Positions 6,836 to 21,982 of a stretch of 64,000 nucleotides of DNA are shown one piece after another. Made by a program: the position numbers and the translations under genes. This DNA comes from Bradyrhizobium diazoefficiens (lineage in GTDB: Bacteria > Pseudomonadota > Alphaproteobacteria > Rhizobiales > Xanthobacteraceae): assembly GCF_016612535.1 (NCBI RefSeq), contig NZ_JAENXS010000001.1, forward strand, positions 1,575,501 to 1,639,500, in the 5' to 3' direction. Below the pieces are notes generated by a model. The model worked only from the letters and a program-made list of their open reading frames with translations. It ran no database searches and was not told where the DNA came from. How positions within the stretch are numbered: the stretch's first letter is position 1; each line of letters begins with the position of its first letter.

Positions 6836-7111
6836 ATGCTCCCCCTCTTCAGTATTGCGCATCTTCTGAGCGCTCCGCGCGACCTTCTTTCATCTGCCGT
6901 CCCGTGTCCTGACCTTGATCGCATCTATATAGAGATCAGGGATATAGAGGTTGTGTGTGCGTAGCCCCTTAGATAGCTCGCCGCTACGGCCGGGCCTATT
7001 GTCACATGCGTGACCTGGGCGCTGCGGCCTTGCAAGAGGAGCCGAGCTTTTGGAGTCGCCGGCGGATGTCGACGTCGGCATGCAGGAATTCACGATTTCA
7101 TCATATGGTGG

Positions 7112-7145
7112 TTTCATGAAATGTAGGATATTGTGATTTCATGAA
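7112..7145 (+). promoter_or_regulatory. Paired TTTCATGAA operator-like sites before the RHH gene
   Basis: A perfect 10-bp palindrome TTTCATGAAA at 7112-7121 is followed 25 bases on by TTTCATGAA at 7137-7145, which overlaps the start codon at 7141. A further half-site, ATTTCATCA, lies near 7095. Closely spaced short palindromes over a promoter/start are typical for autoregulating ribbon-helix-helix proteins, and the next gene encodes one. Confidence 0.5.
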
Positions 7146-7347
7146 GGCTGCCGCTGCGCAATCCCCCAGCGAGGTTGATGAGTACCTGCAGATCCAGGTG
7201 CCGTCGGTTACGAAGCACCACCTCGGCATTCGGGCCGCGGAGGCGCGCGAGCCGATTCGGGTCGTCGTCCTCCGTGCGCTGAAGGCGTATGGCGTGACCG
7301 TCCCCGATGAAGCAATCTCCGACCGTCGAAAGAAGCGGCCAGCATGA
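7141..7347 (+). CDS. Small ribbon-helix-helix-like protein
   Basis: 68 residues. The layout suits a CopG/Arc-type RHH fold: a strand at 14-20 (EYLQIQVP), a helix near 22-37 (TKHHLGIRAAEAREP), a turn, then a second helix (IRVVVLRALKAYG) and a basic tail (RRKKR). Similar short proteins occur in alphaproteobacterial plasmid and partition loci. A DNA-binding, autoregulatory role is inferred. The stop overlaps the next start by four bases (ATGA at 7344-7347), so it is translationally coupled to the MazG-like gene. Confidence 0.65.
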   Translation: MKAAAAQSPSEVDEYLQIQVPSVTKHHLGIRAAEAREPIRVVVLRALKAYGVTVPDEAISDRRKKRPA

Positions 7348-8519
7348 CGGAAGAGTTCACTCCGCTTACCATTCAGGACTATGTCGCGCAGGCGTTGACC
7401 ACCGATCAGCGAAGCGACAGCGGTTCGCTCACGTTTCCGCTGCTGGGTCTGTTTGGCGAGACCGGCAGCCTGCTCAGCGAGGTCAAAAAGAAGCAGCGAG
7501 ATCGAGCTTCGTATCTCGGCTATGCAGGTGCGGTCGTTGAGGAATTGGGCGACGTACTTTGGTATCTCACGACGGTTGCCGCGCGCGGAGGGCTGTCTCT
7601 CGGCGATATAGCTGGAAATCTAAATCGGGGATATGCGGACTGGCAGCGTGCGCCTGATGGCCTACTTTCATTCGCTTCCCTCCAACCCCCAATAATGACT
7701 CGCAGAGCGGAGCCGACACCAGCATTCGAGAAGACACTGCTCCAGCTCGCGGGCGAGGTCGGTTTGCTGATGACCGACCACGAAGCGGGGCGCCTGACGA
7801 ATAACCAAGCGGCTTTGGCAGGGCGCCTTGTCGCGATCATGCGAACCTTGATTCAGGCCGCGAACGAAGCGGGCGTGACGCTCGAGGCGGCGGCGGTCAA
7901 GAATCTGAACAAGATATTCGATCGGTGGCCTCGCGAACGCATCTACCCAGCACCGCTCGACGAGTCCGCGGAAGCTGAAGAAAAATTGCCCCGCGACCTC
8001 TACGTCGACGTGTTTGAGCGTAAAGTTCGCGGTCAAACCTATGTATTCCAGCGTTGCAACGGTCTGAACATCGGCGATCGGCTGACCGACAACGCCATGA
8101 CGGCCGATGACTACCGCTTTCACGACGTCTTTCATTACGCCTATGTGGCGGTTTTGACTTGGTCGCCCGTCATCCGCTCTCTCTTCCGACTCAAGCGCAA
8201 GAGCGATCCCAAGATCGACGAGGCACAGGATGGAGCACGCGCCACGCTGATCGAAGAAGGCGTAGCGACGTGGATTTTCGGGCAAGCCGTGGCCCTGAAT
8301 TTCTTCGCTGACGTCAAGGTTGGTGAGTTGCCGTTCGACATGCTCAAGCATATCCGCCAGTTCGTCGCCGGGTATGAAGTGGAGCAAATCCCGTTGTGGC
8401 TTTGGGAAGAGGCGATCTTGCAGGGCTATGCCGCTTTCCGCTTCCTGCGCGAGCATCGACGCGGGCGTCTCCACATCGATACGAATAACCGTCGCCTGAC
8501 AATCGAGACACTGCTTTGA
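7344..8519 (+). CDS. Tandem MazG-like nucleotide pyrophosphohydrolase with extra C-terminal domain
   Basis: 391 residues. The first MazG-like domain (about 8-100) has 'GLFGETGSLLSEVKKK' and an intact ExxD in 'EELGDVLWYL'. In the first half-motif the usual ExxE reads E-T-G-S, so one acidic ligand is displaced. A second, degenerate copy (about 125-205) keeps the typical end 'GVTLEAAAVKNLNKIFDRWP' but lacks a clear ExxD. The C-terminal half (about 215-391) is a separate domain with 'YRFHDVFHYAY' and 'TLIEEGVATWIFGQA', possibly a metal site. MazG enzymes convert NTPs or dNTPs to monophosphates. Here the gene is coupled to a UDG-like glycosylase, suggesting nucleotide-pool or modified-base work. 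Confidence 0.75.
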   Translation: MTEEFTPLTIQDYVAQALTTDQRSDSGSLTFPLLGLFGETGSLLSEVKKKQRDRASYLGYAGAVVEELGDVLWYLTTVAARGGLSLGDIAGNLNRGYADWQRAPDGLLSFASLQPPIMTRRAEPTPAFEKTLLQLAGEVGLLMTDHEAGRLTNNQAALAGRLVAIMRTLIQAANEAGVTLEAAAVKNLNKIFDRWPRERIYPAPLDESAEAEEKLPRDLYVDVFERKVRGQTYVFQRCNGLNIGDRLTDNAMTADDYRFHDVFHYAYVAVLTWSPVIRSLFRLKRKSDPKIDEAQDGARATLIEEGVATWIFGQAVALNFFADVKVGELPFDMLKHIRQFVAGYEVEQIPLWLWEEAILQGYAAFRFLREHRRGRLHIDTNNRRLTIETLL

Positions 8520-9223
8520 AAACGCCGAAGTCCTTTGCCCAAGCCCTCGCCGAAACGCACCTACCTTCGGTGTTCAATCCCTACGCCGATTGTTGCTCGA
8601 CTTATGATCGAGCAGATGCCGCGCGCGTCCGGCGGCGGAATCTTGTGCGCTGTCTGGATGCGGCCATAACTGCGCGTGTCGACACGATCTGGATCGCCCG
8701 CGATCTGGGCTATCGTGGCGGCCGCAGAACGGGCGTGCCGCTGACGGACGAGGTCCATTTGGGCCAGGCGGCGGCGCTGATGGGCGGCATAGCACTGGAT
8801 CGCGCGACAAAAGGTCCGGTGGTCGCGGAGCGGACCGCGGCCATCGTCTGGAGCGTGCTAACTCGCATCGGCGAGCCCGCCGTGTTGTGGAATATATTTC
8901 CTCTTCATCCGCATGAGGCGGATGACCCGTTCTCGAATCGTTGCCACACAAGGGGTGAGCGCGAAGCCACGTGGCCATTGCTCACGGCTCTCATTGCAAT
9001 GATCAAGCCGCGCCGGATCGTGGCAATCGGCCGCGATGCCGGCATGGCGCTAAACGGCCTCGACATAACGGTCGAGATCGTGCGCCATCCAAGTTATGGC
9101 GGCCAGGCCGAGTTCATCTCGGGCGTCAATCACATCTACGGTGTCGCGGCCGACGATGACAATCGACAGACGCTAGAGCTTCCCTTCTCCGGCACTCAAG
9201 CCGCGAAAGGCGCTGCTGCCTGA
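8516..9223 (+). CDS. Uracil-DNA-glycosylase superfamily-like protein
   Basis: 235 residues from a TTG start that overlaps the MazG stop by four bases. UDG-superfamily-like features include an N-terminal 'NPYADCCSTYD', a glycine-rich 'ARDLGYRGGRRTG' (61-73) at the place of the catalytic loop, 'WNIFPLHPHE' (125-134), and a late 'RHPSYGG' (190-196) matching the H-P-S motif of UDG motif 2. It would cleave a base from DNA or bind damaged or modified DNA; the substrate base cannot be read from the sequence. Its last 28 bases overlap the 3' end of the convergent thymidylate-synthase-like gene. It is co-translated with a nucleotide pyrophosphohydrolase. Confidence 0.7.
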   Translation: MKTPKSFAQALAETHLPSVFNPYADCCSTYDRADAARVRRRNLVRCLDAAITARVDTIWIARDLGYRGGRRTGVPLTDEVHLGQAAALMGGIALDRATKGPVVAERTAAIVWSVLTRIGEPAVLWNIFPLHPHEADDPFSNRCHTRGEREATWPLLTALIAMIKPRRIVAIGRDAGMALNGLDITVEIVRHPSYGGQAEFISGVNHIYGVAADDDNRQTLELPFSGTQAAKGAAA

Positions 9224-9978
9224 TCGAACTTTGTGATCATCGCAGTAATGTCGGATCGGCTGGCAGGCTTTCCGTTGCGACGGGGTTGGTCGATTTCGGC
9301 ATGGGTGGAAATGACGGTAAGCGCGCCGACCTTGAGGCCCGCCTCATGAGCGACAAAGTCCATGAGGCGGCCAAGACCAATCAGGTTTCCCAGCAGCTTT
9401 TCGATATAGAAGTGATTGCGATACATCGCGGTCAAGGTCAGCGTCTTTTCCGCGCCAGGCATGATCTTGAAGCTCATGAAACTGAGGCACTGTCCGCCAT
9501 AAGGCGAATTATCGACATCCCTGACTGGATCGAACAGTGACAGCTCGAACTTGTTTAGGGCCCGCACGTCCTCGTTTTTCAGACGTTCGACGATATCCCA
9601 GAGCTGATTGGGCGCATCACCCTCGGCCACCGGATATTGAATCATGCGCTCGAAATAGTAACCAGACCAGCGTTCGCTTCGCCGAACCTTCTTCAGAATA
9701 TTGTCGCGAAAAATATCGAAGAAGGCAGGTGCGCCGTACCGGCGATAAAGGCCGGCAGGAAAGATGGTGTTCGCCACCGTCTCCACCGACTTCTCGCAGT
9801 CAGACAAGAACTCGTCTACGATCGCGACACGTGGGTTAGCCAGCGTCGCATGAGCGACTGGATCCGCGATATCGATGATGACATTGTAGGCCGCGTGGCC
9901 TGGGCGACCATCGACGGCGCGCACGGCTTCGCGCCAGGCGCTCGCGCAATCAGGCTGCGATGGGATCGGCAGGTACAT
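9196..9978 (-). CDS. Divergent thymidylate-synthase-fold protein
   Basis: 260 residues from the ATG at 9976-9978, preceded by GGAGGAGGT; a longer frame upstream merely overlaps the protease gene. I infer the TS fold from ordered landmarks: 'WDIVERLKNEDVRALNKFELSLFDP' region (127-151), a Cys in 'GGQCLSFMSFKI' (C164, position of the TS nucleophile), 'MYRNHF' (R187), 'LLGNLIGLGRLMDFVAHEAG' (N198), and 'STHAEID' (H226) where TS has GDAHIY. The canonical P-C-H is G-Q-C, so the enzyme is divergent. Possible roles are pyrimidine methylation or hydroxymethylation of dNMPs, or a non-catalytic sensor. It is the last gene of the leftward operon and overlaps the protease gene by 29 bases. Confidence 0.6.
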   Translation of the reverse strand: MYLPIPSQPDCASAWREAVRAVDGRPGHAAYNVIIDIADPVAHATLANPRVAIVDEFLSDCEKSVETVANTIFPAGLYRRYGAPAFFDIFRDNILKKVRRSERWSGYYFERMIQYPVAEGDAPNQLWDIVERLKNEDVRALNKFELSLFDPVRDVDNSPYGGQCLSFMSFKIMPGAEKTLTLTAMYRNHFYIEKLLGNLIGLGRLMDFVAHEAGLKVGALTVISTHAEIDQPRRNGKPASRSDITAMITKFDQAAAPFAA

Positions 9979-10636
9979 CGACCTCCTCCAACAAGGTTGC
10001 GGCCGCATAGATGCGTGAGCCAAGGAACCGTTCCGTAAGCCAGCCGTAGCCCGCGTCACCCCAGCTCGGCCCCCAACTATTACGCACCAGGACGGCACGC
10101 TGGCCGTCGACCTTCCCGTGGCCGACCGCGACGACAGCGTGGCGCCGGTCAGGCTCCGGTTGCTCGCCGGGCGCGGGATTAACGACACCTTGCGGGTTCC
10201 GTTGATAGAAGGCGCGCGACAGCATCGTCAGCACGATCACGGGGCGCCTTTGATCCAGTTCCTGGATGATTCGGTCGATCGAGTGGGTAGCGCTTGCGCC
10301 GTTACGGCCAAACAGCTTGCCGATCTCGCGCGGCGGCGCCCATGACGCTACGTCCGCCGGTGTTGCCGACAGATAGGGCCAGCCGCTCTCTTCGGGTTGC
10401 CCGTCCTTGCGGAGCGCCTGCAGCATCGAGGACAAGAGGGCGCCGGTGTTCGGCGCTCGGCCGGCGCGCCGTTGCGCTTGAAAGAAGGCATACTCGCATG
10501 ACAATGGCGCCCAACCCTCACGTAGAGCGGCGTGCGCATCGCTCGCGGCGAAGGCAAGGCAAGTAGGGCGCGCCCCTTGATTGCGGGCAGGGCCGAAAGA
10601 AGCCCGCAAATCGACCGAAATCGTAATGTCGCTCAT
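9950..10636 (-). CDS. Papain-like (C1) cysteine peptidase, no pro-domain
   Basis: 228 residues. The catalytic set is complete and correctly spaced: Gln20 of the oxyanion hole and Cys26 six residues later (NQGARPTCLAFA), His166 (RRHAVVAVGHG) and Asn186 in the classic 'RNSWGPSWGDAGYGW'. There is no signal peptide and no inhibitory propeptide, so the enzyme should be cytoplasmic and made active unless held by a partner. The gene starts inside the stop of the ImmA/IrrE-chagasin gene (ATGA overlap at 10633-10636). That neighbour's tail looks like a chagasin inhibitor of exactly this peptidase class. Confidence 0.85.
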   Translation of the reverse strand: MSDITISVDLRASFGPARNQGARPTCLAFAASDAHAALREGWAPLSCEYAFFQAQRRAGRAPNTGALLSSMLQALRKDGQPEESGWPYLSATPADVASWAPPREIGKLFGRNGASATHSIDRIIQELDQRRPVIVLTMLSRAFYQRNPQGVVNPAPGEQPEPDRRHAVVAVGHGKVDGQRAVLVRNSWGPSWGDAGYGWLTERFLGSRIYAAATLLEEVDVPADPIAA

Positions 10637-11646
10637 GCGGCCTCAAGCAGCCTTCGCCGTTCGGCGCGCGAAAGCCCCTCTTGCTCAGGGCCAGTCAGAT
10701 CGACATCTACGGCAAGGGTCGCAAGCGGCGGATCAGGATCCCATGGTCGACGTTCGTCGATCGCGAGCCGTCCGCGATAGGTGTCCGGTGGCGTTGCCGT
10801 CACCCGCCTGATGACAGGGCCACCGACACCATCGGCGTCAATCGCCTGTAGGTCGTCGCGGACGACGGCGAATCCGCTCTCTTTGAGCTGATCGATGTCC
10901 CAGAGGTAGCCTCCGCCGCTATGTTCTTCGAGCCGGAGGACAAACAGATCGTTGCGGCTGCCGTCGATGCGCGCTCCTGCGTCGCGCTCGGTGAGCAGCC
11001 AGACGTCGCCGCGGTAGTCTTGCGGCTGGTAGGCCTCAAGCAGCGCGACTTTCATCTCACGCGGCTGGGTCTGAAGTAGCTCCCGCGCCTGCGTCGGCTG
11101 GATGAATCGGTGGCGGGCGAGCGTCCAGCAAGTCGCCTCATAACTGGCGCCGATCCGCAAAGAGAGCTGGTAGACCGCGCTCGGTCGCCGAAAATCCGGA
11201 ACGGTCCAGCCCTGGCGCGCCGCATGCCAAGCGACAAGCCAGCGGGGCATCATGAACTCGACGGCGAACGCGTCGGCCTCAACCTCCTGAAAGTCGCCTG
11301 TCGGCTGCGCCTGCAACGGCATCCGTCGCAGAATGCTCTCGTCATCAAGGCTGGGCTGATGCTGCATGCGAAAGTGGCCGAGCTCATGAGCCGCGGTAAA
11401 CCGCTGAATGCTCATCGGACGTTGGGTCGTAACAAGGACGCCGGGTCCAGGTTCGCTCAGATAAGCACCAAGGAGCCCTTGCAGGGGCCGTACAAGCAGC
11501 GGGAGGTCCAAGGCATGGATAGCGGCGAAGATGTCGACGTTGCCCCCGGCCGCCTCGATCTGCTGACGCAAGTCAAGCTGCTGATGCAGCCGGGCCGCGG
11601 CCATCGTGCCAGCGCGAACGGCGCTCGGATAATCCGCGGCCACCAT
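10633..11646 (-). CDS. ImmA/IrrE metallopeptidase fused to chagasin-like inhibitor domain
   Basis: 337 residues. The N-terminal peptidase (about 1-200) has the zinc motif HELGH at 87-91 and the third ligand region 'EVEADAFAVEFMMP' (121-134), as in ImmA/IrrE/PezT-linked proteases that cleave XRE repressors. The C-terminal part (about 211-318) carries the three loops of chagasin (I42) cysteine-protease inhibitors: 'HSGGGYLW' (242-249, for NPTTGYxW), 'GVGGPV' (273-278), and 'RRPWDP' (299-304, for RPW). The next gene encodes a papain-like peptidase. The gene follows the XRE stop after three bases. Inhibition of that peptidase, and release on signalling, are inference. Confidence 0.75.
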   Translation of the reverse strand: MVAADYPSAVRAGTMAAARLHQQLDLRQQIEAAGGNVDIFAAIHALDLPLLVRPLQGLLGAYLSEPGPGVLVTTQRPMSIQRFTAAHELGHFRMQHQPSLDDESILRRMPLQAQPTGDFQEVEADAFAVEFMMPRWLVAWHAARQGWTVPDFRRPSAVYQLSLRIGASYEATCWTLARHRFIQPTQARELLQTQPREMKVALLEAYQPQDYRGDVWLLTERDAGARIDGSRNDLFVLRLEEHSGGGYLWDIDQLKESGFAVVRDDLQAIDADGVGGPVIRRVTATPPDTYRGRLAIDERRPWDPDPPLATLAVDVDLTGPEQEGLSRAERRRLLEAA

Positions 11647-11649
11647 GGA

Positions 11650-12021
11650 TCAGACTCGTGCCGCGCGCGACCGAGCGCGCAGATATTCGGCGAAACGTCC
11701 GAGTTCGCTGCGGTCCTGCTCGGACAGGTCCGCCGCCTTTCGCGCCAGATGGGCCACATCGATCGGCAAGCTCGCAGCAGCGTCTTCCCCGGTGAAATAG
11801 CCCACCGGCTGACGGTACAGCTTGGCAAGCCGGGCGAGTTCGATCGCCTCGACGCGGCGTTGACCATTCTCGATATCCGTCAGGGCGGTTCGTGGAATCT
11901 TCAAATAGGTTGCGACCTCTTCCTGCTTCAGACCGAGATACTTGCGCGCTTCACGTAGACGATCGCCCAGGAGCCGGCGGGCTTCGTCATCGTTGTCCGG
12001 ATGAACTGCGAGTTCAGTCAT
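11650..12021 (-). CDS. XRE-family helix-turn-helix regulator
   Basis: 123 residues from the ATG at 12019-12021, chosen for the AGGAG seven bases upstream and the ATGA overlap with the preceding stop. The HTH is at about 18-70: 'GDRLREARKYLGLKQEEVATY', then 'IPRTALTDIENGQRRV'. The C-terminal helix 'DLSEQDRSELGRFAEYL' probably dimerises. XRE-ImmA/IrrE pairs are switches in which the protease cuts the repressor when triggered, for example by DNA damage or infection. It likely represses the operon through the palindrome at 12396-12414. Confidence 0.85.
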   Translation of the reverse strand: MTELAVHPDNDDEARRLLGDRLREARKYLGLKQEEVATYLKIPRTALTDIENGQRRVEAIELARLAKLYRQPVGYFTGEDAAASLPIDVAHLARKAADLSEQDRSELGRFAEYLRARSRAARV

Positions 12022-12362
12022 GATTTCGCTCCTTTCTTCTTCGTCCACTCTTTCTCCAAACGAGGCAATAGCTGCCCGAGAGCGCTGTCGACCGAAGTGT
12101 AACCGCCTGCCCGGACGACGCTTTCAGGCAGCTCGAATCCGACAATCGGTTCGACCGCGCAAAGGATCGAAACGACCACCAACGAGTCTACGTGAACGGA
12201 CGCTTTGGAGATGTCCGCGGGCACCGAGGGCAGAGCCATTCCCCTAATCGACGCCTCGATCTTCACGGCCTCGATCAATTCGTCGCGCAGTTTTGCCTCG
12301 ACGGCAGCCATGGGGAATGGCGCAATCTTAACGGGCGGCGGGGCGAGTGTGGTGGTTGCCAT
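12018..12362 (-). CDS. Acyl-carrier-protein-like small protein
   Basis: 114 residues and the first gene of the leftward operon. After a proline-rich N terminus, the protein shows a carrier-protein pattern: a helix (DELIEAVKIEASIRG), a loop ending in 'VHVDSLVVVSI' with Ser60 in a D-S-L motif like the phosphopantetheine site of ACPs, then 'GFELPESVVRAGGYTSVDSAL', matching the second helix/loop and 'F-x-I/L-P-x-x' of ACPs. The usual glycine of GxDSL is replaced by His. Whether it carries phosphopantetheine is unknown. Its coupling to XRE (ATGA overlap) is unusual for an ACP. Confidence 0.55.
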   Translation of the reverse strand: MATTTLAPPPVKIAPFPMAAVEAKLRDELIEAVKIEASIRGMALPSVPADISKASVHVDSLVVVSILCAVEPIVGFELPESVVRAGGYTSVDSALGQLLPRLEKEWTKKKGAKS

Positions 12363-12389
12363 CGCTGTGTCTTTCTAGGACCCGTAGCG

Positions 12390-12418
12390 AATATAATGTC
12401 TGAATTTCCGACATGCAA
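12390..12418 (-). promoter_or_regulatory. Sigma70-like promoter with XRE operator palindrome
   Basis: On the minus strand TTGCAT (12418-12413) and TATATT (12395-12390) are separated by exactly 17 bases. The spacer and the last bases of the -35 box form a 19-bp palindrome, ATGTCGGAAATTCAGACAT (12414-12396), imperfect at one symmetric pair. This drives the gene starting at 12362 with a leader of about 20 bases. A repressor at the palindrome would block polymerase, fitting the XRE protein encoded in the operon. Confidence 0.7.
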
Positions 12419-12450
12419 GTGGTTTCGAGGCCCTTTTGGGCCGGTCCCAG

Positions 12451-13773
12451 CTAGCGCCCGATGCGATGCAGTCGAAAGAGCTTCTCGAAGAAATCGGTGA
12501 TCCTCGATTCGGCCCCGTCGCCGACTAGCTCATTCGCGCCGAAGCGATAGATCTCATACCCGGCAAGGCGCAATTCCCGGTCAGCCGACACCATTTCCGC
12601 ATAGACCTTCAACGACGCCTGGTCCTTCTCTGAGAAGTGGTGCTTCCCATCAACCTCTAGGACGATGCGTTGGCGCTCGGGGAGGAGGAGCAAGAAATCC
12701 ATGCGCTGCCGTGGAAGCGGCAGGCGATGGCGCAAGGTCTTCACGACAGCGGGGTCATAGTGAAGATAGACCTGCGGCAGGAGCGCCGGCAGTGCATCGC
12801 CAAGGCCTGATCGATAGACCTTGAAGTACGTGGCGAAGAGTTTTCGCTCGGCTTCTGACGCCAATGATTTTTGCAGGCGCGCACCAAGATTTGCCGCGTC
12901 GGCCCCTGAAGTGACCGCGCGCCACCACGCCACGAGCTCCGACCAGAGAAGTCCGTTTGGGCTGATCGGCCGGTCATAGACCAAGCAGCTCTCCTCACCA
13001 GAGAGAATGACGATGTCGTTGTTGATAGCATCGGCGAAGCCAATCTCGGGCTTCGGGCCTTGGGAAGCGAAGATCAGGTTGTTGGGTCGGCCGTCTACTC
13101 CGCGCACGAGGGAGCGGAAGACGAAAATCGGGTGACCGGAGAGTTCGCTTTCCTGCGCCAACTCGTATCCATCGCGCGAAAGGATTTTGTTGAGGGCGGC
13201 GACCGTCTGCAATTGCTCCTTCCCCGATCTTGAGAGGGGGTGAACAGCTTCCTCGAGCAACGCGCCGAACCGTGCTCTGGAGCAGTCGAATGCGCCGATT
13301 TCGCCGAACAGATATTCAACCGACCAATCACCGGGATTACGATCCATGTGCTGCGCGATCTGATCGCGCAGGCTTCGACCGCTGCTTCCGAGGAAATCTT
13401 CAATGGGCGTGGAGAGAGGGAAATATCGTCCGACCATCTCCACCGTGCCACGCTCGCCGGCTAGGTCATCTCCGAAGGTACGCGCGACGTCGCGCCGGGT
13501 GATGTGAGTCAGAGGCGGGTCGCTAGCTTCTAGCACCTTGCGTCCGGCTTCGTCGAGGGGGATGTCTCCGCGCTGAGCCGCGAACTTCAAGGCCAAGCGC
13601 GCCAGTTCCTCCTCGGTAAAGTTGGCGAGCGCCAGCTCGACGCGTTGCCGCTTTGAGAGACCTTCACCCGTCGGGACGACGAGGCCGGCGATTCGCTCCG
13701 GTGCCTCACTCAGCTCCGCGTGGGTCATCGGCTGCAGAACGCCGGCTATAAGGCTATGGAGGTCAGCAGCCAT
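12451..13773 (-). CDS. AbiJ-NTD3-like protein with DUF559/Vsr-type nuclease tail
   Basis: 440 residues. The middle (about 120-235) matches the AbiJ N-terminal domain 3 pattern known from abortive-infection-like proteins: 'STPIEDFLGSSGRSLRDQI', 'LLEEAVHPLSRSGKEQLQ', 'LNKILSRDGYELAQESELSG'. The C-terminal 100 residues contain a restriction-endonuclease-like core, 'RMDFLLLLPERQRIVLEVDGKHHF', with D, E and the D-G-K-H-H signature seen in DUF559/Vsr-like nucleases. The N-terminal 110 residues are helical and unassigned. It starts 18 bases after the Mrr-like gene on the same strand. An antiphage role by nuclease activity is likely but inferred. Confidence 0.65.
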   Translation of the reverse strand: MAADLHSLIAGVLQPMTHAELSEAPERIAGLVVPTGEGLSKRQRVELALANFTEEELARLALKFAAQRGDIPLDEAGRKVLEASDPPLTHITRRDVARTFGDDLAGERGTVEMVGRYFPLSTPIEDFLGSSGRSLRDQIAQHMDRNPGDWSVEYLFGEIGAFDCSRARFGALLEEAVHPLSRSGKEQLQTVAALNKILSRDGYELAQESELSGHPIFVFRSLVRGVDGRPNNLIFASQGPKPEIGFADAINNDIVILSGEESCLVYDRPISPNGLLWSELVAWWRAVTSGADAANLGARLQKSLASEAERKLFATYFKVYRSGLGDALPALLPQVYLHYDPAVVKTLRHRLPLPRQRMDFLLLLPERQRIVLEVDGKHHFSEKDQASLKVYAEMVSADRELRLAGYEIYRFGANELVGDGAESRITDFFEKLFRLHRIGR

Positions 13774-13791
13774 CGGGAGACTGGGCGGCCG

Positions 13792-14733
13792 TCATTCCAG
13801 GACGACCTTGAAGGAGGGATATGGTCGTCGGAAAGCGGTAAGCACTCGATCGCGCGCCCGGTCCATCTCGCGAGCTGCTGCGTCGGTCAGCATGAAAGTC
13901 GGGCAAGCGGGATTGCCGCAGCCGCAAGGTCTGATTTCGCCGGAGGACAGCAGCGCTTTGAATCGACGTCGAAGCTGGTCCAATTCACGAACAGTTAGTT
14001 CGAGGGCGCTGCGGATGCTGGCATCGCGGATGTGATGAAGCGAAGGAAGTCGGTGGATTTCGACGCCCTCCCGCGTTTGCCAGATGCCCGTGCTGAGCAC
14101 CCGGATCGTGTCGTCAATGGCCTGTTGGAATGCGTGGAGATTGCTCTCTTCTTGAAATGGCGTCCGAAACGCCGGCCGATCGAAGGCACGGGCGAACATT
14201 GCAAGGTCCTGCTCGTCATCGACGTCTTGAAACTTGTCGACGAAATTGCGCAACTCGACTTCGCTGTCGGGAAACGGAACGCCGTCGACCAGGCGCCGCA
14301 GAAGGAATTCGGCTCGAAGCCGGAGCTGCTCCTCGAACTCCGTGCCAGACCAGATCGCTACTTTAGGGACGCCCAATTTCGCGGCCGCCGAGCGAACCTC
14401 ATCGCGGCGTTGGGCCGAGACACTGCCGCGGCACACGAACTTGAAAGCGTCAGGTTTGCCGGTCGTAGCTTTGACCGCGGCTGCCATATCCTTCTCGGCC
14501 TTTGCCCGAGTCAGGCTGCCGCGATTGACGCATTGAATGACGGTGCGTTCGTCAGGCTGGTCGTCGAACGGACGTGTGCCGATGATGTCACGCCCTTGGT
14601 CGCTTCCCGTCTGGCCGAACCAAGCGGGGTCAGTCCAGCCATCGCAGAGGTGATAGGCGAACACGAGGCGTTCGAACTCGATGCCGCTGAAATCCTCGAA
14701 GTGAATAGGCCGGACCGTTCGAGCTATCCTCAC
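13792..14733 (-). CDS. Mrr-like PD-(D/E)xK restriction endonuclease-fold protein
   Basis: 313 residues from a GTG at 14731-14733 behind a strong AGGAGGT. The N-terminal 110 residues have an Mrr-type core: 'GIEFERLVFAYHL', 'GSDQGRDIIGTRPFDD', then 'TVIQCVNRGSLTRAKA'. The usual Q-x-K of Mrr reads Q-C-V-N-R, so the catalytic lysine is displaced or lost; activity is uncertain. The C-terminal half is helical and carries a C-G-C-G-N-P-A-C-P cluster (near residue 270) that could bind zinc. It starts 11 bases after vapC and is followed by the AbiJ-like nuclease, suggesting one defence operon. Confidence 0.65.
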   Translation of the reverse strand: MRIARTVRPIHFEDFSGIEFERLVFAYHLCDGWTDPAWFGQTGSDQGRDIIGTRPFDDQPDERTVIQCVNRGSLTRAKAEKDMAAAVKATTGKPDAFKFVCRGSVSAQRRDEVRSAAAKLGVPKVAIWSGTEFEEQLRLRAEFLLRRLVDGVPFPDSEVELRNFVDKFQDVDDEQDLAMFARAFDRPAFRTPFQEESNLHAFQQAIDDTIRVLSTGIWQTREGVEIHRLPSLHHIRDASIRSALELTVRELDQLRRRFKALLSSGEIRPCGCGNPACPTFMLTDAAAREMDRARDRVLTAFRRPYPSFKVVLE

Positions 14734-14744
14734 CTGTCTACCTC

Positions 14745-15179
14745 CTAACTCCCAGAGCTGCGAAGCGGGTTGAGGATCTGAACACCCTCGAAATCCTTTT
14801 CATTGTCTGTCACGACGACGCAGTGATTGGCCTCGGCAACCGCAGCGATGATGGTGTCGAGTGCGCTTCTGGGACGTCCCTTTGCCTTCCCACCAGCCAT
14901 AAGACTGGCCCAGATGAGGCCAGCTTTCTCGTCAAACGGCAGGACGCGACCGGCGAACAGCGCTTGCGGACCTTCGGGGCCGGCGAACCAAGTTTCGAGG
15001 GTGCTGCGCTTCTTGCCTTTCGGTTTCTCCAAGATGCCTCGGCGGATTTCGGCGACGGTAAGCGAAGCGATGAAGAGGTCGTCGTCTTTCTGCGCGCCCA
15101 TCCAAGCCAGCAGCGAGCCCGACGGCTCCGGCTTTATGACATTGCTAATGATATTTGTATCAAGAAGGTAGCGCGTCAC
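14745..15179 (-). CDS. vapC: VapC-type PIN-domain toxin RNase
   Basis: 144 residues from a GTG overlapping the vapB stop (GTGA). PIN-domain residues are in order: 'LLDTNIISNVI' (first Asp), 'SLTVAEIRRGI' (Glu), 'SALDTIIAAVAEAN' (Asp), and 'VVTDNEKDF' (last Asp). VapC toxins cut tRNA or other RNAs when their antitoxin is lost. The preceding small gene is the likely antitoxin. The toxin gene is followed within 11 bases by the nuclease genes, so the pair may stabilise them or the whole element. Confidence 0.88.
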   Translation of the reverse strand: MTRYLLDTNIISNVIKPEPSGSLLAWMGAQKDDDLFIASLTVAEIRRGILEKPKGKKRSTLETWFAGPEGPQALFAGRVLPFDEKAGLIWASLMAGGKAKGRPRSALDTIIAAVAEANHCVVVTDNEKDFEGVQILNPLRSSGS

Positions 15180-16025: not shown

Positions 16026-17717
<1,692 letters not shown>

Positions 17718-18028
17718 TTAAACCGTTGCGCGCCTTCAAAGAAAATGCCCGGGACGGTGGATTGAGGGCCAACGCTGCTCGCGTGGCTTGCTTCTCCCGT
17801 CCCAAAGGCTTCCTTGGAAGGCAACCCCGGGCAAGGCCCGTCGGGTGCTGGGGGTATGTATCAACCCGAACCGCCTTTGGAAAGGGCTGAGGGGACGTTT
17901 TTTCAACTTTGTGACAGTTAACCGGCGCGGATTCCGCCCGGTTCGCCACACACTTGCCAGAAGTTCCACAAACGGCCAGCTTGCGGCGACAAAACAGAAG
18001 GCGAAACGCCGATTTGGGGAGGACCGCC
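17718..18028. other. Divergent intergenic region between tRNA-fMet and aldehyde dehydrogenase
   Basis: No supported gene. It should hold the tRNA promoter (leftward) and the dehydrogenase promoter (rightward). I see GC-rich inverted segments around 17800-17850 (for example CTTCCTTGGAAGG) but no confident promoter. This is where the chromosomal DNA to the right of the element begins. Confidence 0.4.
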
Positions 18029-19486
18029 TTGGAGACTTCCTTGGACAACGCATCGAACCGCCTCCTGGCGAGTGCCCCGCTGGCCGCGCTGACGGACAGT
18101 TTTCAGGCCATGGTCGCGCGCTCGCGGGCCGAGCCGGCGCCTGATTGCGCCGAGCGGCTCGACCGGCTGGCGCGGCTGCGCGCCGTGGTCGCCGCCAATG
18201 AAGAGCGTTTTCGGCAGGCGATCTCAGCCGATTTCGGCCACCGCTCGGCGGTCGAGACCAATATCGCCGAGACGATGATGGTGTTCTCCGAGATCCGGCA
18301 TGCGTCAAAGCACCTGAAGAGCTGGATGGCACCGCAGCGGGTGGCGACCGCGCTGCAATTCCTGCCCGCGCGCAACCGGTTGATCCCGCAGCCGCTCGGA
18401 ATCGTCGGCATCATCGCGCCCTGGAATTATCCGCTGCAGCTGACGCTCGCGCCCGCGATCGGCGCCATCGCGGCCGGCAACCGCGTGATCATCAAGCCGA
18501 GCGAACTGGTGCCGCACTTCTCCGCGCTGCTGAGGGAGGCGGTCGCCGAGACGTTCGATGCCACGGAGCTGCTCGTCACCGGCGTCGAGGACGAGATCGC
18601 AAAGGGTTTTGCCAGCCTGCCGTTCGATCATCTCGTGTTCACCGGCTCGACGCGGGCCGGGCGGCTGGTCGCGGAGGCTGCGGGGCGCAATCTCACGCCT
18701 GTGACGCTCGAGCTCGGCGGCAAGTCGCCGGCGATCATCGATGTGTCAGCCGATCTCGACGAGGCGGCCGAGCGCATCGCCTACGGCAAGCTGCTCAATG
18801 CCGGGCAGACCTGCATCGCGCCGGACTATGTGCTGGTGCCGGAGAGCGCGTTGCAGGCCTTCGCCGAGAAGGTGCGCGCGCAGATGCGGCGGATGTTCGG
18901 CACCGATCCCGCCAACAAGGACTACACCTCGATCATTTCCGATCGGCATTATGCGCGGCTCGAAGCGCTGGTCGCAGATGCCGCGCAGCGCGGCGCGAAG
19001 ATTTTGCAACCGGCGCAGGCGGACGATCCGAACTGGAAGGCGCATCGCAAATTCCCGCCGACGCTGATCCTTGGTGCGACCGAGGAGATGGCCGCGATGC
19101 AGGAGGAGATCTTTGGCCCGGTGCTGCCGGTGCTGGGCATTCGCGATTCCGCAGACGCGATCGCCTTCATCAATCGCCGCGACCGGCCGCTGGCGCTATA
19201 CTGGTTCGGCAGGGACCGCGACGCGCGTGACGAGGTACTGGCGCGCACTGTCTCCGGCGGAGTCACGATCAACGACTGCCTGTTTCACTTCGCGCAAACG
19301 AACCAGCCGATGGGCGGCGTCGGCGCCTCCGGCACCGGTGCCTATCACGGCGAATGGGGTTTTAGGACGTTCAGCAAACTGAAGCCGGTATTTTATCGCT
19401 CCAAGTTCAACCGCCTCGCCGATCTCTATCCGCCCTATGGCGGCAAGATCGCGCGGCTGGAGAAGATGATGCGGTTCATGTCGTAG
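18029..19486 (+). CDS. Aldehyde dehydrogenase (coniferyl-aldehyde dehydrogenase type)
   Basis: 485 residues from a TTG at 18029 (METSLDNASNRLL), chosen because GGGGAGG lies just before it; an upstream frame extension has no RBS. It oxidises an aldehyde to an acid with NAD(P). The ALDH landmarks are present: 'IIAPWNYPLQLTLAPAIGA', 'KPSELVPH', 'VFTGSTRAGR', the general base Glu in 'LELGGKSPAII', and the catalytic Cys in 'LNAGQTCIAPDYV'. Length and the C-terminal 'PPYGGKIARLEKMMRFM' fit the CalB-like group acting on coniferyl or aliphatic aldehydes. The GMC oxidoreductase downstream could make its aldehyde. Confidence 0.88.
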   Translation: METSLDNASNRLLASAPLAALTDSFQAMVARSRAEPAPDCAERLDRLARLRAVVAANEERFRQAISADFGHRSAVETNIAETMMVFSEIRHASKHLKSWMAPQRVATALQFLPARNRLIPQPLGIVGIIAPWNYPLQLTLAPAIGAIAAGNRVIIKPSELVPHFSALLREAVAETFDATELLVTGVEDEIAKGFASLPFDHLVFTGSTRAGRLVAEAAGRNLTPVTLELGGKSPAIIDVSADLDEAAERIAYGKLLNAGQTCIAPDYVLVPESALQAFAEKVRAQMRRMFGTDPANKDYTSIISDRHYARLEALVADAAQRGAKILQPAQADDPNWKAHRKFPPTLILGATEEMAAMQEEIFGPVLPVLGIRDSADAIAFINRRDRPLALYWFGRDRDARDEVLARTVSGGVTINDCLFHFAQTNQPMGGVGASGTGAYHGEWGFRTFSKLKPVFYRSKFNRLADLYPPYGGKIARLEKMMRFMS

Positions 19487-19556
19487 CGGCTCAACGCCGT
19501 CGTTGCGAGCGAAGCAATGACGAAAACAACAAAAAGACTCTCAGGGGGAAACACAC

Positions 19557-21149
19557 GTGACTGACACATTCGATTTCGTCGTGGTGGGCGGGGGCTCCGG
19601 CGGCTGCGCGGTGGCGGGCCGGCTGTCGGAGGATGCGACGACATCCGTAGCCCTGCTCGATGCCGGCGGACGCAACGACAATTGGCGGATCACGACGCCG
19701 TTCGGGCTGGCCCTGCCATACAAGGCAGCCAACTGGGCCTTCGATACCGTGCCGCAGAAGGGATTGAACGGCCGCATCGGCTATCAACCGCGCGGCAAGG
19801 GCCTCGGCGGCTCCTCCGCGGTCAACGCCATGGTCTACATCCGCGGCCACAAATGGGACTACGACCACTGGGCCTCGCTCGGCAATGAAGGCTGGTCGTA
19901 TGCCGACGTGCTGCCCTATTTCAAGCGCTCGGAGAACAATTTCGATTTCGACGGCGCGTATCACGGCAAGGGCGGCCCGCTGCATGTCAACAGGCTGCGC
20001 TCGGACAATCCGATCCATGACGTCTTCCATCAGGCCGCGCGCGAGGCGCAATTCCGCATCCGCGAGGACTTCAATGAAGAGGATCACGAAGGGCTCGGCA
20101 GCTATCAGGTGACGCAGCACAAGGGCGAGCGCTGGAGCGCGGCACGCGCCTATCTGCAGCCCCACATGGACAAGCGCGCCAATCTGCGCGTCGAGACCGG
20201 GGCGCATACCACGAAAATCCTGTTCGAAAATGGCCGCGCGGTCGGCATCGAATATGTGCAGGGCAAGCAGACAAAGCAGCTGCGCGCCCGCCGCGAGGTG
20301 ATCCTTGCCGGCGGCGCCTTCCAGTCACCACAATTGCTGATGCTGTCGGGCATCGGCGATGGCGAGGCGCTTGGCAAGCACGGTATCGGCGTCACGCATC
20401 ATCTGCCCGGCGTCGGGCGCAATCTGCAGGATCATCCGGATTTCGTGTTCGTCTACGCCTCCGACTATCCGCACTTCGTGCATGCATCGCTTGGCCGGTT
20501 GCCATCCCTGCTCCGCGCCATCCAGCGCTACCGCCGGGAGCGGCGCGGCCTGATGACCACCAATTTCGCCGAGTGTGGCGGCTTCCTGAAGACCCGGTCC
20601 GACCTCGAAATATCGGACATTCAGCTGCACTTCGTCATCGCGATGCTCGACGATCACGGCCGCAAGAAGCACAAGGAGGCGGGCTTCTCATGCCATGTCT
20701 GCCTGTTGCGGCCGACGAGCCGCGGCAGCGTCTGGCTGAAAAGCGCCGATCCGCTCGCTGCCCCCATGATCGATCCGAACTTCTTAGGGGAAGCGGAGGA
20801 TCTCGAGGCGATGGTCGCGGCCTTCAAGACGACGCGCCGGCTGATGGAGACGCCTGCGCTGCGCGCGCTGCAGAAGAAGGACATGTTCACGTCCGATGTG
20901 CGCACCGACGACGACATCCGCGCCATCCTGCGCGAACGCGTCGACACCGTCTATCACCCCGTCGGCACCTGCAAGATGGGCACGGATGCGATGGCCGTGG
21001 TCGATCCGACGCTGAAGGTGCACGGCGTGGAAGGCCTGCGCGTCGTCGACGCCTCGATCATGCCGACACTGATCGGCGGCAACACCAATGCGCCGACCAT
21101 CATGATCGCCGAGAAGGCGGCGGATATGATCAAGGCGGAGATGCGGTAG
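19557..21149 (+). CDS. GMC-family FAD-dependent oxidoreductase (choline/alcohol dehydrogenase-like)
   Basis: 530 residues from a GTG behind CAGGGGG. The N-terminal FAD site reads 'FVVVGGGSGGCAVAGRLSED'; the GMC signature 1 region is 'GKGLGGSSAVNAMVYIRG' and signature 2 'GAFQSPQLLMLSGIG'. The C-terminal 'DTVYHPVGTCKMG' and 'IGGNTNAPTIMIAEKAADMI' supply the catalytic His and Asn. It oxidises a primary alcohol to an aldehyde; the substrate is unknown. It is on the same strand 70 bases after the aldehyde dehydrogenase, which suggests a two-step alcohol-to-acid pathway. Confidence 0.88.
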   Translation: MTDTFDFVVVGGGSGGCAVAGRLSEDATTSVALLDAGGRNDNWRITTPFGLALPYKAANWAFDTVPQKGLNGRIGYQPRGKGLGGSSAVNAMVYIRGHKWDYDHWASLGNEGWSYADVLPYFKRSENNFDFDGAYHGKGGPLHVNRLRSDNPIHDVFHQAAREAQFRIREDFNEEDHEGLGSYQVTQHKGERWSAARAYLQPHMDKRANLRVETGAHTTKILFENGRAVGIEYVQGKQTKQLRARREVILAGGAFQSPQLLMLSGIGDGEALGKHGIGVTHHLPGVGRNLQDHPDFVFVYASDYPHFVHASLGRLPSLLRAIQRYRRERRGLMTTNFAECGGFLKTRSDLEISDIQLHFVIAMLDDHGRKKHKEAGFSCHVCLLRPTSRGSVWLKSADPLAAPMIDPNFLGEAEDLEAMVAAFKTTRRLMETPALRALQKKDMFTSDVRTDDDIRAILRERVDTVYHPVGTCKMGTDAMAVVDPTLKVHGVEGLRVVDASIMPTLIGGNTNAPTIMIAEKAADMIKAEMR

Positions 21150-21469
21150 TCGCTCTCCCTCGCTCCGCTCTTGCGGGGAGAGGGTTGGGGTGAGGGGCTG
21201 CCTCGGCAAAAATGGTCATAGTTGGACTCGCGGAGAGTCCCCCTCACCCGGATTGCATCTTTGATGCAATCCGGCCTCTCCCCGCAGGCGGGGAGAGGCG
21301 AAGAAGGACCGGGACGCCGGCCACGAGGGTGGTTTCTTTACCAGCGTCGAGTAAGCCTGATATTCGCGCAATCCCTGAGCTCTTGAAGCGAAAAAATACA
21401 GACGATTTTAGCGATCTGAAACCGGAACGATCGCTTCGGCGTTCATTCGTTCCAAGGCAGGTTTCGCCC
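21150..21469. repeat. Intergenic inverted-repeat cluster (REP-like)
   Basis: This 320-base gap holds a 'CTCTCCCTCGC...GCGGGGAGAGGG' block at about 21151-21195. A perfect 12-bp inverted repeat CCGGATTGCATC/TTT/GATGCAATCCGG lies at 21248-21274. Abutting it is a second perfect repeat, GCCTCTCCCCGC/AG/GCGGGGAGAGGC, at 21274-21299. Such blocks recur between genes in bradyrhizobia. The cvpA promoter must be in the last 170 bases; no gene is seen. Confidence 0.65.
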
Positions 21470-21982
21470 ATGAACAGTTTCGATCTCGCCGTCTATGCCG
21501 CGCTCGCAATTGCCATCGGCTTCGGGTTCAGGACCGGCCTGCTGCGCAGCGCCATGACCATCCTCGCTTATCTCCTCGCCGCGCCGATCGCTGTCTCGCT
21601 GATGCCGATGGTCGCGCCGCAGATCGCCGACAACCCGAATGCGCCGCAGCTTCAGAACTGGATCTGGTTCTTCGGCATCTTCCTGGTGGTCGGCATGTTG
21701 CTGGGGTATATTGGCCGCTTCGTGCTCGACGACACGATCCGCGAGACCGGGATCGGCGACCGCCTCGGCGGCGCCGCGCTCGGCGCCATCAGGGTCGGCC
21801 TCGTCGCCACCACGCTGGTGCTGGTGTTCGACCAGATCGTACCGGCCAATCATCAGCCGCCCTTCCTCGCCGGTTCGCATCTGCGGCCGCTGTTCTCGGC
21901 GGTCGGACAGATGGGCTTCAGGTCGCTGCCGCCGGAGGCGGCTGCGGCGATCGACCGCCTCAAGCAGGAGCGCCGCATCTGA
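21470..21982 (+). CDS. CvpA family membrane protein
   Basis: 170 residues from the ATG at 21470. It has four hydrophobic segments: 'SFDLAVYAALAIAIGFGFRTG', 'ILAYLLAAPIAVSLM', 'WIWFFGIFLVVGMLLGYIG', and 'GALGAIRVGLVATTLVLVF' in the CvpA pattern, with 'DRLGGAALGAIRVGL' as the family's conserved loop. CvpA proteins are inner-membrane proteins linked to colicin V production and envelope stress in enterics; the role here is unknown. It is not in an operon with its neighbours. Confidence 0.8.
   Translation: MNSFDLAVYAALAIAIGFGFRTGLLRSAMTILAYLLAAPIAVSLMPMVAPQIADNPNAPQLQNWIWFFGIFLVVGMLLGYIGRFVLDDTIRETGIGDRLGGAALGAIRVGLVATTLVLVFDQIVPANHQPPFLAGSHLRPLFSAVGQMGFRSLPPEAAAAIDRLKQERRI

Follow-up and report, generated by a model that had tools for sequence, protein, structure and literature searches.

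In a 2026 study, Escherichia coli systems with thymidylate synthase (TS), deoxynucleoside monophosphate (dNMP) kinase, 5-hydroxymethyldeoxyuridine (5-hmdU) kinase or NMAD domains block phage, and the available part of that study places units with MazG, MazG-C, uracil-DNA glycosylase (UDG) and NMAD among its predicted systems (PMC13092281). Brig3, a member of the UDG superfamily, defends by excising a modified base (PMC13160076). Here we describe a gene cassette in a 64,000-nucleotide stretch of Bradyrhizobium diazoefficiens DNA (GCF_016612535.1, contig NZ_JAENXS010000001.1, positions 1,575,501 to 1,639,500), referred to as the window. Five leftward genes encode an acyl carrier protein (ACP), an XRE-family repressor, an ImmA-type metallopeptidase fused to a chagasin domain, a papain-family peptidase and a TS-fold enzyme, and they face an operon with MazG_C and UDG-like genes. 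We put the chance that the cassette is an inducible nucleotide-modification defence module borne by mobile elements at about even.

The cassette resembles the DefensePredictor systems of E. coli in its TS-superfamily and 5-hmdU-kinase-family domains, which occur there in validated anti-phage units. A preliminary description of this DNA had stated that no described defence system has this gene set. This was too broad, since related systems with TS, dNMP-kinase, 5-hmdU-kinase or NMAD domains are validated; it holds in that none seen in the available part of the study has an ACP, an ImmA-chagasin protein or a papain, operon-level domain sharing there being outside this comparison (PMC13092281). 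Compared with the CapH-CapP pair of cyclic-oligonucleotide-based antiphage signalling systems (CBASS), the cassette also has a repressor-peptidase pair ahead of further genes: in PADLOC, XRE matches capH (2e-11) and ImmA matches capP (5.4e-14), which supports the earlier likening of XRE-ImmA to a damage-responsive switch. However, the cassette ImmA carries a chagasin domain, no Cap effector was recognised in the cassette, and Pfam, NCBIfam and PADLOC found no CD-NTase among its genes, so it does not qualify as CBASS. Iyer in 2013 reportedly described phage thymidine hypermodification pathways with a TS homologue, a 5-hmdU-kinase helical domain and an NTP pyrophosphohydrolase. The cassette has the same three enzyme types but is borne by plasmids or chromosomes and adds an ACP and a protease switch. 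Brig1 and Brig3, compared by description, are UDG-superfamily enzymes borne on mobile or defence DNA, as the UDG-like protein of the cassette may be, but their partner is BapA instead of a MazG_C and TS cassette (PMC13160076). Our literature search, which did not cover Iyer 2013 or Burroughs 2015, where a description is possible, found none of this gene set, and the accessible parts of PMC7824862, PMC7159879 and PMC10853773 do not describe it. We file the cassette with the nucleotide-modification conflict systems, as a variant with an ACP and ImmA-chagasin/papain. It is rare to find nucleotide-modifying enzymes, a dedicated ACP and a metallopeptidase that carries, by fusion, the likely inhibitor of a neighbouring cysteine peptidase together.

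The features of the cassette in the window are:
7141..7347, plus strand: small protein of 68 residues (open reading frame, ORF), at the head of the convergent MazG-UDG operon
7344..8519, plus strand: MazG + MazG_C (PF18722) protein, whose model resembles dimeric dUTPase
8516..9223, plus strand: putative UDG-superfamily protein, TTG start, 28-bp overlap with the TS gene; PF03167 at 3.9e-4, below cut-off
9196..9978, minus strand: divergent TS-fold enzyme, from ATG; TIGR03283 at 4.9e-11
9950..10636, minus strand: C1 papain-family cysteine peptidase; PF00112 at 1.8e-13
10633..11646, minus strand: ImmA/IrrE-type metallopeptidase (M78, HELGH) with C-terminal chagasin domain; M78 at 1.4e-8
10726..10956, minus strand: chagasin (I42) domain, residues 231-307 of the ImmA protein; PF09394 at 3.2e-5
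11650..12021, minus strand: XRE-family repressor; HTH_31 at 3.3e-11
12018..12362, minus strand: ACP-like protein with Asp-Ser attachment site, Ser60; 19-member profile against solved ACPs at 1.6e-6
12390..12418, minus strand: sigma-70-like promoter TTGCAT-17 bp-TATATT, consensus by eye
12397..12413, minus strand: predicted palindromic operator TGTCGGAAATTCAGACA, nearly filling the promoter spacer

The five leftward ORFs are all uninterrupted and lie in the order ACP, XRE, ImmA-chagasin, papain, TS. ACP/XRE and ImmA/papain are joined by ATGA overlaps, XRE/ImmA by a 3-bp gap and papain/TS by a 29-bp overlap; this layout, with one promoter containing a palindrome, had been noted before and is confirmed in the sequence. 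The TS gene is taken from its ATG, whereas the mechanical ORF list begins it at GTG 10188.

A scan of a genome collection with the TS protein returned 20 loci, and all of them carry ACP, XRE, ImmA, papain and TS in the same order. UDG and MazG are present in 19 of the 20; L010 ends inside TS. Among plasmid records ImmA matched 21 and TS matched 22, with 20 common to both; the remaining two TS records are from Nostoc, with an annotated ImmA gene adjoining, and from Burkholderia arboris, with a partial match. Gene context was examined in 11 of the 22. MazG matched 35 plasmid records, 18 of them among the 22 with TS, and UDG matched 45. On whole genomes, TS was matched in 4 of 60, the source genome included. 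Altogether we compared 39 TS loci, the window among them; they were picked by TS similarity and many are closely related, so they are not independent.

DNA similarity between the window and its relatives begins at 7103-7401 and stops at 12174-12597 in most close relatives (7103-12597 for L007, 7342-12419 for both L019 and L020). In L009 and L010 a contig end cuts the block, and in L022-L025 and L030-L032 divergence is too great for a single one. Each block holds the five genes and the convergent small protein-MazG/MazG_C-UDG operon, and in many also the promoter palindrome. Because similarity is confined to about 7.1-12.6 kb, the MazG/MazG_C and UDG genes belong to the cassette, and the unit reaches to about 7141. 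The preliminary description had correctly seen the convergence but had treated that operon as a mere neighbour. The border is not strict everywhere: L006 and L008 share extra flank with the window, and L011, L013, L015, L019 and L020 share separate plasmid-like backbone pieces with it. A second full copy lies on another contig of the source genome (L036, G000:C2:490000-509500), with a TS protein 69% identical; this copy carries its own palindrome. Since the order is kept across many genomes and plasmids, the blocks are mostly cassette-bounded and the set recurs over 39 loci, we reject a chance cluster, the outcome named in advance as refuting the operon.

Two architectures were found. The 39 loci, from Proteobacteria, Cyanobacteria, Actinobacteria and one haloarchaeon, contain XRE (39), ImmA (39), ACP (38), MazG (36), papain (30), UDG (27), HMUDK_hel (11), dCTP deaminase (5) and dTMP kinase (1). 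UDG, MazG_C and HMUDK_hel and, in some loci, dCTP deaminase and dTMP kinase strengthen the earlier proposal that the system is tied to pyrimidine chemistry. Branch A, in Alpha- and Betaproteobacteria, is ACP-XRE-ImmA::chagasin-papain-TS facing UDG-MazG_C. Haloarcula L026 and Rhizobium L074 also have the papain, with HMUDK_hel replacing UDG. Branch B is ACP-XRE-ImmA-TS with HMUDK_hel and MazG_C and without papain; its nine members come from Cyanobacteria (L028, L034), Streptomyces (L027, L035) and three further genomes from the genus of the window (L037-L039), with L063 and L065. These nine loci keep XRE, ImmA, TS, MazG_C and HMUDK_hel, and eight of them keep the ACP; L065, without it, lies at a contig end. 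We therefore reject the papain as the core effector as a general rule, although it had been proposed as an effector released on signal. HMUDK_hel stands in the place of UDG in these loci.

Where the papain is present, it is closely tied to the chagasin domain. The papain residues Q20, C26, H166 and N186 are invariant in 16/16. The window chagasin match (24.6 bits) is under the Pfam cut-off of 27.2. We scanned ImmA proteins from 15 of the 30 papain loci and from all nine papain-less loci; chagasin was fused to ImmA in 15/15 versus 0/9 (E≤0.1). The ImmA GYxW loop follows the same division (28/30 versus 0/9), as does the [RQ]PW loop (29/30 versus 1/9). GYxW is retained in Haloarcula and Burkholderia ImmA, which are 31% and 33% identical to that of the window. 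Part of this linkage would follow from shared ancestry, but it is read most simply as a cognate pair of inhibitor and protease. Restraint of the papain, supposed earlier, is strongly suggested by the presence of chagasin in papain loci and its absence from the others. The linkage points to a compact relay of two proteases in bacteria as well as an archaeon. The papain would be kept inactive by the chagasin domain of ImmA until ImmA is engaged or turned over; freed papain might then amplify the switch or serve as a protein effector, as an optional extra of the papain branch only. An intact triad beside a likely inhibitor, an operator in the operon's own promoter and a plasmid location would also suit an addiction or abortive module, with the papain as toxin, ImmA chagasin as antitoxin, XRE-ImmA as autoregulator and the nucleotide genes as passengers. 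We regard such a module as improbable, because the nucleotide genes are the constant part: they are retained in the nine loci that have neither papain nor chagasin.

The ImmA HExxH motif is present, and its gene adjoins that of XRE, in all 39 loci. XRE also matches RmrA in PADLOC (1.2e-14). In the window, TGTCGGAAATTCAGACA is the sole zero-mismatch match of the motif, and two-mismatch matches are at chance level. A strict palindrome lies upstream of ACP in 13/30 papain loci, window included; several further papain loci show close variants, which are not counted here. Six of the nine branch B loci have another palindrome, GTAAGA-n-TCTTAC, shortly upstream of ACP. The palindrome of the window sits between the -35 and -10 elements, so XRE binding would block transcription. 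By analogy with related switches, XRE would bind here and repress the ACP-XRE-ImmA-papain-TS operon, and a DNA-damage or infection signal would activate ImmA, leading to XRE cleavage and derepression. The ImmA relative PprI is reported to sense single-stranded DNA (PMC10904395).

The TS protein matches NCBIfam TIGR03283 with 42.5 bits, far under the equivalog cut-off of 174.55, and has no Pfam match. Its family profile matches solved TS structures at 0.0015, and its structure model matches TS, MilA and the dCMP hydroxylase AfhB, which places it in the TS fold. Active-site positions were taken from the alignment of the family profile with solved TS. Catalytic Cys164 and the pyrimidine contact Asn198 are each invariant in 19/19 homologues. 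In Lactobacillus casei TS, we take D221 to be the folate contact and His259 and Tyr261 the ribose contacts. Asp is found at the first position in only 1/19 homologues and His/Tyr at the other two in 0/19, which sets the family apart from canonical dTMP synthases as well as from MilA and AfhB. As these contact residues are mostly replaced, use of dUMP and folate is uncertain, and an ordinary dTMP synthase is disfavoured. A phage origin of the gene was also rejected: at E 1e-3 none of 50,697 phage records matched it.

The ACP protein as a single sequence had no family match in Pfam or PADLOC and one chance-level match in NCBIfam (0.088). By the match of its 19-member family profile to solved ACPs, together with the attachment serine, it is an acyl carrier protein; D59-S60 is invariant in 19/19. 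AcpS is linked in seven of the 39 loci and an Sfp-type phosphopantetheinyl transferase in one.

From these proteins we infer a nucleotide product and a role for the ACP. The TS-fold enzyme would make a C5-modified deoxyuridine nucleotide, with dUMP supplied by the dUTPase-like MazG protein, and the phosphopantetheinylated ACP would join the TS reaction or a later decoration step. A more specific proposal, which we hold to be a long shot, is that the enzyme uses the ACP and not folate as electrophile donor: the Cys164-activated C5 would attack an acyl or one-carbon unit on the ACP phosphopantetheine, and the resulting 5-acyl- or 5-alkyl-deoxyuridine would poison phage DNA synthesis and be the dedicated substrate of UDG/HMUDK_hel. 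If this is true, immunity would include carrier-protein-fed nucleotide chemistry gated by a protease-inhibitor-protease relay, and the TS-ACP pair would be an addition to the known modifications of DNA building blocks. Since dCTP deaminase, dTMP kinase, MazG and TS-fold genes are all nucleotide enzymes, the cassette could instead supply or sanitise nucleotides for plasmid replication as a housekeeping function. This is very improbable: such a role leaves no place for ImmA, chagasin, papain or ACP, the active site of the TS protein has diverged too far to make dTMP in the ordinary way, and the distribution is as patchy as 4/60 genomes.

UDG and HMUDK_hel never occur together in the 39 loci; L010 has neither because its contig ends. 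The same alternation was found outside the cassette. Six UDG plasmids without a TS gene were examined, five of them with MazG_C, and in four (L069, L070, L072, L077) UDG-MazG_C adjoins a ThsB-type TIR and Nmad2; L071 has a metallophosphoesterase gene and L073 a NUDIX gene. Among three plasmids with HMUDK_hel and no TS gene, L076 (Parabacteroides) has TIR-Nmad2, L075 has a TIR nearby and L078 has neither. Beside TIR-Nmad2 pairs the ratio of UDG to HMUDK_hel is thus 4:1. In some plasmids this sister operon lies amid further TIR, patatin, SIR2 or SLOG genes. Because the two proteins are interchanged in two settings, they appear equivalent in role, which predicts for the poorly understood HMUDK_hel domain the same job as for a UDG-type enzyme. 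Against solved structures HMUDK_hel has no close relative, with a single match at 0.51. The superfamily placement of the UDG-like protein is tentative (PF03167 below cut-off, UDG_fam4 at 0.0017); D63, the presumed catalytic Asp, N126 and H191, the last in an H191-P-S motif, are invariant in 13/13. The model of the MazG protein matches dimeric dUTPases by VIA-align, mostly through its N-terminal half. In MazG_C (window 7953-8510) a YRFHD.FH motif and a downstream glutamate are invariant in 17/17, which suggests a metal-binding active site.

In the proposed defence module, the UDG-like enzyme, or HMUDK_hel elsewhere, would act on a base that is modified or foreign, whether in DNA or in a nucleotide, and phage DNA synthesised during infection would thereby gain abasic sites. 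Defence is a function that we infer. The cassette might alternatively act on modified-base phages only; UDG/HMUDK_hel would then remove foreign bases as a Brig-like glycosylase, and TS-ACP-MazG would protect or adjust the host nucleotide pool. Brig1 and Brig3 are UDG-superfamily defence glycosylases (PMC13160076), and UDG-MazG occurs beside TIR-Nmad2 without the TS operon. We consider this unlikely, as it accounts neither for the ACP and the linked AcpS nor for the TS gene, which is constant, and assumes modified-base specificity.

The window cassette lies on a mobile element. On the ACP side are an AbiJ_NTD3 protein, an Mrr-type nuclease, a PIN gene and then a large serine recombinase (16026-17684), likely the edge of the element; on the MazG side are ParB- and primase-like genes. 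Shedu, a type I-E cas gene, a restriction endonuclease, SIR2-STAND and JetD-like genes are neighbours at other loci, and relaxase, type IV secretion system or partition genes lie beside the cassette in several. These settings would also fit self-modification, in which the cassette hypermodifies plasmid DNA or that of an integrative and conjugative element (ICE) at transfer, evading the restriction of the new host, and XRE-ImmA induces it at transfer. ICEBs1 is an ICE of the ImmR-ImmA type. An ImmR-like regulator is reported to control an ICE (PMC10233336). HMUDK_hel, moreover, takes its name from a phage 5-hmdU DNA kinase. On the other side, the constant genes of the cassette include neither a polymerase nor a transfer gene (for the families searched), the glycosylase partner could attack self DNA, and related domain sets are validated as anti-phage (PMC13092281). 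We rate self-modification as possible but rather doubtful.

Gene content, order and conservation, the UDG/HMUDK_hel alternation, the chagasin-papain linkage and the palindrome in the promoter are established. Several observations weigh against a defence module acting through nucleotide modification. Of the 22 plasmid records with TS, 13 are typed as conjugative, which also suits a mobile-element function. Only 6/20 flanking ORFs have a PADLOC match (1e-5, 10 loci, no control set), and one of these six is a conjugative TrwC relaxase-helicase by Pfam; we do not take these matches as proof of defence-island enrichment. In 17 of its 35 plasmid records MazG_C is not accompanied by the TS gene, and no MazG is present in the stretch examined at Haloarcula L026 and Rhizobium L074. 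The dUTPase match falls just short of the caution line that applies to helical folds; Foldseek gave none for this model at E≤0.001. The replaced folate and deoxyribose contacts of the TS protein count on the same side. By motif scan the MazG-UDG operon of the window lacks the XRE palindrome, which leaves coordinated regulation unsupported.

The small protein (7141..7347), which resembles a ribbon-helix-helix protein, has no Pfam family, and a homologue is detectable in 9/39 loci, window included. Repeated TTTCATGAA-like palindromes lie upstream of its operon (window 7080-7150) and are a possible separate operator. In some loci the matches are split: TS runs over two frames in L074 and two pieces in L021, MazG is in two overlapping pieces in L012, and UDG in L064 is in two pieces 1.5 kb apart, as if after insertion.

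A scan of the phylum gave a TS match in 21/398 genomes, the source genome included, of which only four were strong. The other 17 (E 1.1e-14 to 4.1e-9, frames of 493-786 aa) are probably a different TS-superfamily group. Weak TS-like matches (L044-L060, L062) fall in a few families of the phylum. Three weak-TS loci (L066-L068, 5-14 kb each) contain no ACP, XRE, ImmA, papain, UDG, HMUDK or MazG; L066 has a weak dCTP-deaminase-like match.

Between the cassette and the serine recombinase, window 12451-15179 encodes the AbiJ_NTD3 protein, with a weak DUF559 nuclease-like part, the Mrr-type/PDC-M58A nuclease and the VapC-like PIN protein. AbiJ_NTD3 also adjoins the cassette in L008. An aldehyde dehydrogenase gene begins past the recombinase. 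The chromosomal DNA past the recombinase (window 17640-21982) is 84-89% matched by L038:16539-19490, which flanks a branch B cassette in another genome of the genus, and both branches may share one integration hotspot.

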